A stretch of DNA of 40,666 bases, taken from assembly GCA_947627985.1 (NCBI GenBank), contig CANQYD010000017.1, positions 1-40,666 on the forward strand. Direction: 5' to 3'. Shown here in pieces: positions 1,878 to 40,451 of the stretch. The stretch's first letter is position 1. Each line of letters opens with the position of its first letter. The translations under genes were made by a program, and so were the position numbers. The notes beneath the pieces are model-generated. The model saw nothing but the letters and a program-made list of their open reading frames with translations, was not told the DNA's origin and did no database searches. This DNA comes from an uncultured Clostridia bacterium. Its GTDB lineage: Bacteria; Bacillota; Clostridia; Oscillospirales; Ruminococcaceae.

Positions 1878-1955
1878 GGGGCGAAGCCCCGCTGCCGCAG
1901 GCAGCGCGCCGACGCTTCGCGTCGGCGGTGCGACTTCGTCGCACGGGCTTCGCCC
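1878..1955. repeat. Hairpin-array repeat, copy B
   Basis: Modules in order: GGGGC-GAA-GCCCC (1878-1890), GCTGCC-GCA-GGCAGC (1891-1905), CGCCGACGC stem with TTC loop (1907-1927), GTGCGAC-TTC-GTCGCAC (1928-1944) and GGGC-TTC-GCCC (1945-1955). All stems are perfect. Compared with copies C and D over 77 nt, the only differences are in the loop triplets of modules 2 and 3. A pyrimidine-rich tract containing CTCCCCCGCACC follows. Confidence 0.9.
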
Positions 1956-6243: not shown

Positions 6244-6273
6244 GCCGTCTGAAAATTCAGGCGGCGATTTTTT
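6244..6273 (+). terminator. Intrinsic terminator of galM
   Basis: Stem GCCGTCTGA/TCAGGCGGC with one G-U pair and an AAAT loop (6244-6265), followed by a T-run at 6268-6273. It begins 25 nt after the galM stop. Confidence 0.85.
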
Positions 6274-6473
6274 AAATTATGGGAGGGAATGCGGAGGAAT
6301 ATTTTGGCAATTTTGAATGGTGTATAGTGAGTATGGGCATTTTACCCTCACCCCCGACTTGCAGCAAAAACTCTCAGAGCACGGGCAATCCCACGTTTTC
6401 GATTGCAAAGTGCGATGAGCAAGTTTTTGCGCAAGTCATACCCCATTTCCCAAGGGAGAGGGGGCATTTGAGC

Positions 6474-6696
6474 CTCGCTTCGCTCGGCTCCAAGCGACTT
6501 CGTCGCCGGTTTTTTGTTGGGGGAACCCCCGGCGAGGGTTCCCCCGATGAAAACAGTCCACCGGACTGTTTTCATTTCTCCCCCTCCTGCGCTTATTACG
6601 ATAAAAAAGCAAGACGACGGCTCACGCCGTCCTCTTGCTTGGAGATTTCGCGCTCTGCGGAGCGCGACCAAGGGCTCTGCCCTTGGATTCCGCAGC
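6474..6696 (-). repeat. R2 composite hairpin repeat, copy b (inverted)
   Basis: Reverse-complement copy of the R2 repeat at 1455-1634. The 13-bp stem with arm ATGAAAACAGTCC is at 6547-6575, and the CCAAGGGC/GCCCTTGG stem is at 6668-6686. The latter's loop reads AGA in the R2 orientation, against GGA in copy a, while both arms are identical. Between these modules the copy contains the rpoBC terminator hairpin. The CGCACTT-GCAATCG block lies at about 6376-6420. It fills the gap between the convergent galM and rpoC genes. Confidence 0.8.
6603..6640 (-). terminator. Intrinsic terminator of the rpoBC operon
   Basis: A 15-bp stem with one mismatch and a 4-nt loop (6607-6621 with 6626-6640). On the minus strand it is followed by six T residues (A-run at 6603-6608). 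It lies about 140 nt beyond the rpoC stop, inside the inverted R2 repeat. Its stem has no counterpart in R2 copy a. Confidence 0.85.
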
Positions 6697-6782
6697 CTTG
6701 AAAGGCTGGCGAACTTTTTGCCTTGTCATTCAGAAATCTTCATTCTGAATCAGCCTTCCGATTAGTTACCGTTACCCTCTGC

Positions 6783-15780: not shown

Positions 15781-16764
15781 ATGAAAAAAATATTTGCTTT
15801 GATTCTTGCCGGGCTGACGCTTTGCTCATGCGGCGCGAAGCCCGATGAACCCGCTGTTTCAGCCGATCCTGCGGCTGCTCCGATCGACGCGCCGGCTTTT
15901 GATCTTCCGCCGAAGACCAAGATCGCGGACGTGTCGGATATCCAAAATCCTCCCGAAACCGAGGCTTCGGAAAACGTATTGGACGAGCCCGAGCCGGTTG
16001 AGCCGCAGTCTTGGTATGAGATCGGTGAGGAGGACGACCGCGATTTTTCGGATTCCGACCTCATCGACTTCGAGATCGCCGAAAAGTACCGGGAGACGCT
16101 GGTACTGAGGATCAAAAACCTCTCCGACGAGCCGATGGATAGGGGCGGCGGCTTCATCATCGAAAAAAATATCGACGGAAAGTGGACGCGCCTTTACTCG
16201 CAGTCGGACATCATGTTCCCTGCCGCAAACGTCTGGGTGGAGCCGGGGGAAGAGGCGTTTGAGATCATCAGCCTCGAAAAATTCTTCGGCGAGATGCCGG
16301 ACGGGAATTACAGAATTGTTAAAGATTTCAATCCCGAGAGCGATTTTCAGAATCCGATCGAGTTGGCTCAGGAGTTTGATTTTGATGATGGTGATCTGCC
16401 GAACCTGCCGGGTCAGCCGGACGTGATGATGCTTCCCGACAAAATCGAGGAGGGACTGGAGCTGACGGCTGACGCGGATAAGGCGGTCCTGCGCAACCTG
16501 ACCGAGCTCGACGTCGAGTATGGCGAGAATTTCCGGCTCGCGCGGCTGATCGGCGGGAAGTGGTATTATCTCCGCGAGACCGAGCCCGACCGCCCTGTGC
16601 CGGCGGTTTTGCTGACCACGCCCGCGGGCGCCGAGAGCGAGCTCGATTGGGTGGACGTCGGCGTGTACGGTGAGCTGCCCGAGGGAAGGTATGGGATCGC
16701 GATCGCGGTGAACCTTGGGGGCGAGGAAAAGGTGGCGTTCGGGGAGGTTACGGGGGATTATTGA
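15781..16764 (+). CDS. Lipoprotein with two tandem Ig-like (Big_14-type) domains
   Basis: A 327-residue exported protein. The start is the ATG at 15781 with AAAGGAG upstream; an earlier frame from 15763 overlaps that site. The signal peptide ends in LTLCSCG, a lipobox with the acylated Cys near residue 19. A Pro/Asp/Glu-rich linker follows to about residue 90. Two similar domains then share a pattern seen in bacterial Ig-like domains of the Big_14 type: L.I.N....E...G..F.IEK...G.W, then a Pro-containing segment, then W.....V..YGELPEGRYGI/R. The first spans about 95-200 and the second about 220-327. It is preceded by an 8-bp inverted repeat TTTCACCC/GGGTGAAA within the GCAATAATTTCACC motif. 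Function is unknown; extracytoplasmic ligand binding is only a guess. Confidence 0.8.
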   Translation: MKKIFALILAGLTLCSCGAKPDEPAVSADPAAAPIDAPAFDLPPKTKIADVSDIQNPPETEASENVLDEPEPVEPQSWYEIGEEDDRDFSDSDLIDFEIAEKYRETLVLRIKNLSDEPMDRGGGFIIEKNIDGKWTRLYSQSDIMFPAANVWVEPGEEAFEIISLEKFFGEMPDGNYRIVKDFNPESDFQNPIELAQEFDFDDGDLPNLPGQPDVMMLPDKIEEGLELTADADKAVLRNLTELDVEYGENFRLARLIGGKWYYLRETEPDRPVPAVLLTTPAGAESELDWVDVGVYGELPEGRYGIAIAVNLGGEEKVAFGEVTGDY

Positions 16765-16783
16765 TTGGGTGCGGGAGGATACG

Positions 16784-16860
16784 GGGCGAAGCCCCGCTGC
16801 CGAAGGCAGCGCGCCGACGCGCAGCGTCGGCGGTGCGACTTCGTCGCACGGGCTTCGCCC
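16784..16860. repeat. Hairpin-array repeat, copy C
   Basis: Five modules: GGGC-GAA-GCCC, GCTGCC-GAA-GGCAGC (16796-16810), CGCCGACGC stem with GCA loop (16812-16832), GTGCGAC-TTC-GTCGCAC (16833-16849) and GGGC-TTC-GCCC (16850-16860). It starts 19 nt after the lipoprotein stop and is identical over all 77 nt to copy D. The reverse complement of its left flank contains CCTCCCGCACCC, the same string found beside copy F. Confidence 0.9.
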
Positions 16861-16946
16861 GAGTGTGATTCTGCGCTTAGGTATTAGAGGACAGCAGGCA
16901 TTTAGCTCAAGCCCTCTGTTTCTATCGGGGTTCGGCGGTTTATGCA

Positions 16947-16976
16947 AGCCCTGCGGCAGGGCTGGGTGCTTTTTAT
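16947..16976 (+). terminator. Possible intrinsic terminator between repeat copies C and D
   Basis: Perfect stem AGCCCTG/CAGGGCT with a three-base CGG loop (16947-16963), then GGGTGC and a TTTTT run. It could end transcripts of the upstream lipoprotein gene, 180 nt away. The gap between stem and T-run weakens the call. Confidence 0.45.
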
Positions 16977-17051
16977 AAACCTTGATAGGAGAGGAAGCCC
17001 GGGCTCGGGGCTTGGTATCCCTCCCAAACCTTGGCAGAGGCAGAAAGCTCC

Positions 17052-17128
17052 GGGCGAAGCCCCGCTGCCGAAGGCAGCGCGCCGACGCGCAGCGTCGGCG
17101 GTGCGACTTCGTCGCACGGGCTTCGCCC
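17052..17128. repeat. Hairpin-array repeat, copy D
   Basis: Identical in all 77 positions to copy C, 268 nt downstream in the same orientation. It is followed by a pyrimidine-rich tract and then by the 3' end of the leftward cellobiose phosphorylase gene. Confidence 0.9.
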
Positions 17129-39211: not shown

Positions 39212-39291
39212 GGGCGAAGCCCGGCACGCGAAGCGTGCCCGCCGACGCTTCGCGTCGGCGCGCTGCCCTTCCGGGCAGCGGGGCTTCGCCC
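39212..39291. repeat. Hairpin-array repeat, copy E
   Basis: Modules: GGGC-GAA-GCCC (39212-39222), GGCACGC-GAA-GCGTGCC (39223-39239), CGCCGACGC stem with TTC loop (39240-39260), CGCTGCCC/GGGCAGCG with a TTCC loop (39261-39280) and GGGC-TTC-GCCC (39281-39291). Read on the minus strand, the module order matches copy B: outer, CTGCC-type, CGCCGACGC-type, variable, outer. The variable module has a different but perfectly paired stem. Confidence 0.9.
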
Positions 39292-39446: not shown

Positions 39447-39531
39447 GGGCGAAGCCCCCGGTGCCGAAGGCACCGGCTTCCCCGGCTTCGCCGGGGAAGC
39501 GACCGCGCTCGCGCGCGGTCGGGCTTCGCCC
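39447..39531. repeat. Hairpin-array repeat, copy F
   Basis: Modules: GGGC-GAA-GCCC (39447-39457), CCGGTGCC-GAA-GGCACCGG (39458-39476), a 10-bp stem CTTCCCCGGC with TTC loop (39477-39499), GACCGCGC/GCGCGGTC (39501-39520) and GGGC-TTC-GCCC (39521-39531). All inner stems differ from copies B-E yet pair perfectly; module 2 resembles one in copy A. It ends 18 nt past the thyA stop, beside the tract CCTCCCGCACCC. Confidence 0.9.
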
Positions 39532-39548
39532 TTCCCTCCTCCCGCACC

Positions 39549-40451
39549 CTACTGCGCAATCGGGAATGAAATCTTCCCCATATGCCGATAATCGATAAGC
39601 TTCACGTCCTTAAGCTCCGCAGAATTGTCAAAATCATAGAAATCCCCGATCTCGGGGTTCAGCCAAAGCTTCGGCGCGGGATAGCTCCCGTTTTGGTCAT
39701 ATCTTCCGATTTGCTCCAAAACTCCCTCTTTTTGGTTGACGTAGATATGCGCGTCCTTTACCGACCAATCAAGAGTGCCGGGTTCAAGCCCCGTCACCTG
39801 CGCCAGCATGCACAAAAGCACCGCATATTGCGTCACATTAAAAGGCAGCCCGAGCGGCACGTCGCAGCTTCGCTGGTGCACCCAAGCGTTGAGCCTTCCC
39901 TCGGTCACGTCCCACTCGCTCGACCAGACGCAGGACGGCAGCACGGCGGTTTCGAGATAGTCGTTCTGCCATAGGCTCATCACCATTCTGCGGTCCCCGG
40001 GGTTGTTTTTGAGGCGGTCTATGAGGCTGTCGGTCAGGTTGAATTTGTTGACGATCCAGCCGTAAGCGGTCCCGATGGTGTGCGCCCATTCCTTCCCGAA
40101 AAACTTGTGAACATCAGTCCTGACGAGATTTCCGCTTCCGTCGGGGATCATCTGCACCGCGTTCCAATATCCGTTTTCGTCGATCTCCCACTCGTCCCAA
40201 ATGTGGACGTTGCGGGACTGCAGCCAACGCACATCGTTGGATTTTGCCTGATAGAACCAGAGCATTTCAAGGACCGCCTGTCGGATAAAGAGCTGTTTGG
40301 TGGTGAGTATGGGGAATTCCGAGCCGACGTCGAGCGAAAAGCTGAACGACGGAATTTTAAGGGTATTTACGCCGGTGCGGTTTTGCACCTCGACCCCCTC
40401 GGCGAGAATTTTTTTAAGAAGATTGCAGTAGATATCATCCCAACGCGACAT
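39549..40451 (-). CDS. thyA: Thymidylate synthase (variant active-site neighbourhood)
   Basis: A 300-residue ThyA-type enzyme that methylates dUMP to dTMP using methylenetetrahydrofolate. The start has GGAGG 7 nt upstream. Visible motifs: NRTGVNTL, the FPILTTKQL segment, the QRSCDVPLGLPFN phosphate- and dUMP-binding loop and the KDAHIYVNQ Tyr/His motif. The nucleophile is C174 in LPSCVWSSEW. The residue after it, His in E. coli (Cys146-His147), is Val here, and the usual QF further on is SEW. The rest of the fold appears intact, so this is taken as a functional sequence variant. Its partner folA lies downstream. Confidence 0.93.
   Translation of the reverse strand: MSRWDDIYCNLLKKILAEGVEVQNRTGVNTLKIPSFSFSLDVGSEFPILTTKQLFIRQAVLEMLWFYQAKSNDVRWLQSRNVHIWDEWEIDENGYWNAVQMIPDGSGNLVRTDVHKFFGKEWAHTIGTAYGWIVNKFNLTDSLIDRLKNNPGDRRMVMSLWQNDYLETAVLPSCVWSSEWDVTEGRLNAWVHQRSCDVPLGLPFNVTQYAVLLCMLAQVTGLEPGTLDWSVKDAHIYVNQKEGVLEQIGRYDQNGSYPAPKLWLNPEIGDFYDFDNSAELKDVKLIDYRHMGKISFPIAQ

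Follow-up and report, generated by a model that had tools for sequence, protein, structure and literature searches.

Short intergenic repeats of a Ruminococcaceae genome, probably mobile, with a single-stranded DNA cloverleaf as their predicted conserved form

The window analysed here is a whole stretch of 40,666 nucleotides from an uncultured Clostridia bacterium (contig CANQYD010000017.1), and it contains six members of a repeat family. We consider it reasonably probable, at roughly 60%, that the family consists of mobile repeats, short, non-autonomous and intergenic, which conserve the form of a single-stranded DNA cloverleaf. The consensus of the family is an 11-bp closing stem, GGGC-GNA-GCCC/GGGC-TNC-GCCC, around three near-perfect mini-hairpins, which mostly carry triloops.

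Architecture of the elements and their number in the source genome

The initial annotation of the window had described six elements of one design, and all of them are present as judged by their sequence, by parsing into hairpins and by matches to a model (R1) that was built from nine copies of the source genome (G000), two of them window elements. A search of the window with R1 returned these six at E ≤ 0.0017 on both strands, and the next match had an E of 0.41. Whole elements are given here without a strand. Element 1 (93–179, 87 bp; R1 E 1.5e-4 on the minus strand and 1.7e-3 on the plus strand) consists of the outer 11-mers and hairpins with the loops CGAG, TTC and GAA. Element 2 (77 bp), which folding also supports, had been placed at 1878–1955 and truly starts at 1879; the coordinates of the other five stand as first given. 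On the plus strand, its 5′ outer 11-mer GGGCGAAGCCC (1879–1889) is followed by the inner hairpins CGCTGCC(GCA)GGCAGCG (1890–1906), CGCCGACGC(TTC)GCGTCGGCG (1907–1927) and GTGCGAC(TTC)GTCGCAC (1928–1944) and by the 3′ outer 11-mer GGGCTTCGCCC (1945–1955). The 5′ 11-mer has 1945–1955 as its partner and can also form a GAA mini-hairpin alone. There is no unpaired linker in this layout: the parts of the 77-bp form sum exactly (11+17+21+17+11), so that its only unpaired bases are the three triloops. Elements 3 (16784–16860) and 4 (17052–17128), of 77 bp each, are identical and start 268 bp apart, while elements 5 (39212–39291, 80 bp) and 6 (39447–39531, 85 bp) share the gap between thyA and folA.

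The opening GGGC-GAA-GCCC and the closing reverse complement GGGC-TTC-GCCC are present as described and pair as the 11-bp outer stem (GGGCGAAGCCC/GGGCTTCGCCC), which in every window element encloses three hairpins with nearly no linker. Since each outer 11-mer forms a mini-hairpin by itself (GGGC-GAA-GCCC) and can also pair with the other, the complete fold is a cloverleaf. Folding of five elements and one reverse strand as single-stranded DNA gave this cloverleaf at −43.1 to −48 kcal/mol, with z values of −4.9 to −10.0 and no shuffled sequence folding equally well. The inner hairpins had been called perfect, nearly all with triplet loops; there are indeed three in each element and triplets predominate, but the stem of the middle hairpin in element 1 contains one mismatch, and 4-nt loops occur in three inner hairpins (CGAG in element 1, TTCC in element 5 and TCGC in element 6).

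The initial annotation had named, as a check on the family, a search for further copies in the source genome and in relatives among the Clostridia; many were found in both. Pattern counts over the 2.16 Mb of G000 gave 215 forward and 210 reverse 11-mers, compared with 3 and 0 for a reversed control pattern, and 190 exact inverted pairs at the correct distance, a density of about one copy per 11 kb. A sample of 423 kb, composed of the window and 20 fetched stretches (382,370 bases) picked where 11-mers were listed, contains 48 paired elements of 76–89 bp plus 9 unpaired 11-mers, three of which adjoin a chain of three hairpins whose second 11-mer is altered. Parsing found three inner hairpins in 48/48 pairs, with 140 of 144 stems free of mismatches, 69 distinct stems, and 0–1 unpaired linker bases in 42 of the 48 elements. 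Chains of at least three hairpins also number 48 in the sample, a set not quite identical to the paired elements, and each lies at most 16 nt from an 11-mer. Three block-shuffled copies of the same 423 kb contained no such chain, and a chance origin was rejected on this ground.

Other repeats were seen in the same DNA. The linkers between tandem copies in G000 contain a repeat of ~100 bp whose ends resemble CTTCTGCTYCTAYC and GATAGAAGCAGAAG (for example L054 15257–15461 and window 16861–17051). A second mosaic repeat, with the hairpins CCAAGGGC(GGA)GCCCTTGG and ATGAAAACAGTCC(GGT)GGACTGTTTTCAT, occurs at 1440–1680 of the window, inverted at 6270–6720, and at about 2180–2540 of L102; it is also found near an IS200-type gene.

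Conservation of shape and distribution among related genomes

In bins of the rabbit-gut Lapin series and in the rumen bin RUG14213, the outer stem is kept and the three inner hairpins have other sequences, A/T-rich in RUG14213. The same holds for the congeners in general: the cloverleaf shape is kept, the outer stem is mostly kept and the inner stems differ. Where the outer stem of a congener is altered, it still pairs (GGGCGGAGCCC/GGGCTCCGCCC and GGGCAAAGCCC/GGGCTTTGCCC). Among the matches listed, 92 pairs were parsed from 80 of 87 contig stretches and from four viral contigs; L186–L192, which include one Magnetococcales stretch and two others from outside Clostridia, stayed unparsed. Three hairpins are present in 71 of the 92, all in Clostridia or Ruminococcaceae bins, and of the 21 pairs without three hairpins 18 are in other records and 3 in Clostridia bins. 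Spread to other phyla was rejected, as the 14 pairs in non-Clostridia records among the matches listed have 0–2 inner hairpins, and so was viral or plasmid carriage: in the four viral contigs the pair pattern is present but never encloses three inner hairpins, and one 131-base query gave no match in plasmid and phage collections. A bin assigned to Magnetococcales (L137, L138, L176, L180) contains a different repeat, in which GGGCGAAGCCC and GGGCTTCGCCC surround a short core that is hairpin-free in three of these four loci.

R1 gave 164 matches across 77 chosen sources. The covariation check that had been proposed was carried out on the 150 stored matches (136 distinct rows, model-aligned, with both strands of many elements), and its outcome is strong: 98.9% of the cells pair, against 69.6% after shuffling and no more than 47.8% when the alignment is slid; changes occur on both sides at 31 of 34 pairs; and 1083 cells are altered on both sides versus 16 on one side only. 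In G018 we also saw a long form of ~150 bp (L206 13184–13335, L208 892–1045 and others), with the outer 11-mers, one hairpin per end and, in the middle, an arm TCCGCCGT...ACGGCGGG whose loop measures ~85 nt.

A second model, R2, matches at least 14 of the 31 genomes of the genus (31 candidates scored per genome). Among 149 relatives scanned, it also matches G045, the single positive genome from another genus of the family, whose locus L262 has the outer sequence GCGGCGAAGCCGC and three TTC hairpins. It matched none of 397 other genomes across the phylum, with 11 candidates scored per genome under stricter filters; as few candidates were scored and the filters of the phylum scan were stricter, the R2 counts are floors and the absence from the phylum is weak. 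G017, which has no R2 match yet 11 of the 11-mers on each strand, is probably a carrier. An exact-pattern scan of the class, in a sample without congeners, was positive in 1 of 391 genomes. On a thyA tree of 27 species with a midpoint root, one group of 11 holds 10 of the 11 carriers, G026 being the one outside it; the carrier label needs 3 changes compared with 8.9 for shuffled labels.

Genomic placement, insertion and the search for a mobilising enzyme

All 42 copies of the 423-kb sample that could be classed with a home-made gene caller (6 of the 48 were left unclassed) are intergenic. Counted by copies, co-directional gaps hold 22, convergent gaps 10 and divergent gaps 10; counted by distinct gaps, the figures are 19, 7 and 5, against a background of 213, 35 and 29. 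The distance to a gene end is 17–76 nt in 14 of the 42. Tandem copies are common, at a spacing of about 235–300 bp and with shared linker types, and single copies are often flanked by an imperfect terminal repeat, GTGCGGGAGGAGGG, pointing inward. At 5 of 15 displayed loci, one of them degenerate, this repeat starts 0–4 nt from a stop codon, the loci having been chosen for a near gene end and including one, L057, that is a gene start. Its core GTGCNGRRG is present in 12 of 96 flanks versus 9 of 960 control stretches, while GGRRRGG favours the flanks only mildly (17/96 versus 37/960). In the window, the sequence and locus display place terminal-repeat-like sequences beside element 3 (GGGTGCGGGAGGA, 16767–16779, plus strand), 2 nt past the stop codon at 16762–16764, and beside element 6 (GGTGCGGGAGGAGGGAA, 39532–39548, minus strand), directly behind the thyA stop codon (39549–39551). 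Terminal inverted repeats of the kind that mark MITEs are therefore present, in imperfect form.

Insertion relative to related species, another mark of MITEs, can be seen at two loci. The thyA–folA gap of G000 measures 445 bp with two elements, and the protein matches lie 448 nt apart; in 26 of 26 congeners having both genes they are 12–62 nt apart. Similarly, a gap of 181 nt with one element separates purN from purO in G000, and 7–32 nt do so in the 12 congeners with an alignable purN end (17 genomes that align only the first 196–226 purN residues, and the unmatched G011, were left out). The short gaps of the congeners at both loci indicate that copies entered between existing neighbours in the G000 lineage. 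These empty sites, a comparison with other species, support the earlier suggestion of a non-autonomous mobile repeat. No target duplication was seen by eye at the displayed loci. As a separate observation, G018 (L083, L099) shows a tandem duplication of the 3′ end of thyA and the 5′ end of folA.

An enzyme that might move the repeat was sought between its copies. No transposase domain was found in 17 proteins encoded between neighbouring copies (from 12 of 13 listed gaps, L206 13325–15365 included and smaller overlapping ORFs left out); they are housekeeping-like or belong to no family, and an autonomous partner at these sites was rejected. Another explanation, that this is a true REP/REPIN family moved by a TnpA-REP (RAYT) or an IS200-type Y1 transposase of the host, we regard as unlikely. 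Inverted outer palindromes, intergenic and in high copy number (190 pairs; 42/42 intergenic), resemble REPINs as described in PMC3116915, and Y1_Tnp matches, found in 8 of the 31 genomes of the genus, occur in 6 of 14 carriers versus 2 of 17 others; G000 has two full copies and G004 ten matches. However, 8 of the 14 carriers have none, and G018, with more than 200 11-mers per strand, has only interrupted Y1_Tnp pieces; these genomes are bins. The Y1 copy of G000 that we examined (L102) has no flanking 11-mers. The terminal tag is likewise missing: neither GTAG nor CGTC occurs in any of 96 ten-base flanks, GTAG is in none of the 48 elements, and CGTC is inside 29 of the 48, within arms. GTAG matters for the action of TnpA-REP (PMC8266576). 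With neither tag in the 96 flanks and with no Y1 gene that tracks the repeat, it is not a REP by definition; a clear link to a TnpA-REP, which the initial annotation had advised looking for, is not supported, and we dropped it.

Folding, possible mechanism and relation to known systems

The three-hairpin elements, 48 from G000 and 83 of 99 others, contain 3386 pairs, of which 3366 are Watson-Crick, 4 G-T, 8 A-C and 8 other, the true G-T rate being somewhat higher than counted since the parser penalises mismatches. The triloops are GNA or TNC in 115 of 122 cases in G000 and in 171 of 202 in the others, compared with 28 of the 113 triloops in other hairpins of the G000 sample, and C-G closes 120 of the 122 triloops of G000. 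A GNA loop on one strand and G-C pairs in the stem are what characterises GNA mini-hairpin DNA, and both are found here. DNA mini-hairpins with these traits are extraordinarily stable and nuclease-resistant, according to PMC4686876, which cites Hirao 1994 and Yoshizawa 1997. In addition, the element is symmetric under inversion, and matches to the model occur on both strands. The near absence of G-T pairs, the closure by C-G of GNA/TNC loops, which make very stable DNA mini-hairpins, and the inversion symmetry all suggest that the structure is probably one of DNA rather than RNA. Of the 'structured RNA/DNA element' that had been proposed, the DNA part is thus favoured and the RNA part less so.

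That the repeat is instead a structured RNA (a 3′-UTR stabiliser, terminator or attenuator) spread by copying seems to us improbable. The strong covariation speaks for it, as does the nearness of those 14 copies to gene ends. For a structured RNA, covariation would pass through G-U intermediates and one strand would be transcribed; here covariation is present, but G-T pairs are at the 4 in 3386 given above and the strands are alike. GTAG REPs, by comparison, often have G-T pairs, which their authors read as a sign of RNA function (PMC3733652). The divergent gaps with their 10 copies, the window copies, which have no T-run behind them, and the copy inside the purN–purO pair also argue against an RNA. 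Strong covariation, as this repeat cautions, need not mean a functional RNA.

How a DNA cloverleaf might keep its shape while its sequence changes is suggested by its arms and loops. Perfect arms that differ by just one base pair form 17 pairs, and 4 stems have a mismatch. Fourteen copies of the 77-bp type have identical arms and differ in the central loop, which is GAA or GCA in 8, TTC or TCC in 4 and something else in 2. An orthologous case lies in the pst–pho region (L065 15700–16100, L205 4600–4990, L174 4350–4740, L256 1330–1720): hairpin 1, with identical 9-bp arms, has the loop TTC in G000, G018 and Lapin-028 bin48 and GAA in G028, a loop inversion. The stems are otherwise nearly unchanged among these four genomes, which speaks against fast arm turnover at this locus. 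Strong constraint on this element was considered and rejected, since the region has a mean column identity of 91%, in three as in four genomes, and shared recent DNA explains this equally well. This 91% likeness across four genomes contrasts with an identity of 78% between the thyA proteins of G018 and of G000, and the region with its element has probably been exchanged between gut species.

Spacer inversion and arm homogenisation are described as outcomes of replication template switching in PMC8604942 (and see, for stems, PMC8794818). On this basis we propose template switching here. The cloverleaf would form in single-stranded DNA, for example on the lagging strand, and a putative nuclease or transposase would act on the folded strand and spread copies. 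The outer 11-mers may be the sequence-specific part read by the enzyme, the inner arms counting by their shape. Template switching during replication would use one arm as the template for its partner, perhaps together with selection for folding, and the arms would then change one base pair at a time without loss of the shape. Folding in the cell and movement are deduced from sequence, which does not tell template switching from selection. The full account, in which the inner part of a mobile DNA is passed on as a shape, an enzyme of these Clostridia reads a four-way-junction cloverleaf of GNA mini-hairpins and template switching rewrites arms and flips loops, with almost no inner sequence conserved, is a tentative one and less likely than not.

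BIMEs are known as sites for gyrase or a nucleoid protein. A comparable role of the repeat in chromosome structure would fit its density, intergenic position and tandem clusters, but the absence of an R2 match in 17 of the 31 congeners shows that it answers no general need, and its inner sequence is not conserved; we give this role little credence as the origin of the repeat, though a mobile repeat could have acquired it later. An artefact of assembly or binning, or chance, is scarcely credible: the genomes of known source are all metagenome bins, and all except RUG14213 come from one rabbit-gut series, but shuffled DNA lacks the chains and the rumen bin RUG14213 has the same design.

If the reading as mobile single-stranded DNA cloverleaves is true, what defines this bacterial repeat family would be the secondary structure of its DNA and not its sequence, and it would be a very clean case of compensatory change at the DNA level. 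It would offer a test bed for the spread of palindromic repeats without an evident RAYT, and for template switching versus selection in keeping hairpin stems perfect.

The initial annotation took the family to be undescribed. This agrees with the open-access literature we searched, in which no description of the repeat was found, the occurrences of the 11-mer string there appearing unrelated as judged by their listing; term searches of the available text of PMC12306157, PMC2267715, PMC10969869 and PMC6006769 gave no such element. In our reading the repeat works like a REPIN or MITE. At gathering score, Rfam gave no match in the window, and a scan of 80 kb of copy-rich DNA yielded just a T-box, which lies outside the listed copies (L053:4695–4924). 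The radC RNA (RF01754) is alike in having several GC-rich hairpins, and it was rejected: its match, to one element only, scores 28.7 bits against a cut-off of 40 and extends into thyA with broken pairs. Organelle hairpin elements (sponge RHE, Volvox palindromes) share GC-rich hairpin arrays and intergenic spread, a likeness by description only, and in other hosts. Bacterial MITEs are likewise short, non-autonomous and inserted, with terminal-repeat-like ends; the repeat differs from them in its cloverleaf core kept by shape, in that inspection by eye of the displayed loci showed no target duplication and in that no parent transposon was found among the 17 proteins between copies. REPINs, or REP doublets, with their RAYTs share inverted end palindromes, intergenic position, high copy number, families particular to each genome and clusters, and a supplementary legend of PMC3116915 mentions a 'clover' configuration. 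Compared with REPINs, the repeat lacks the GTAG/CGTC tag, a tracking Y1 gene and nearly all G-T pairs, and it has three extra inner hairpins whose stems vary freely.
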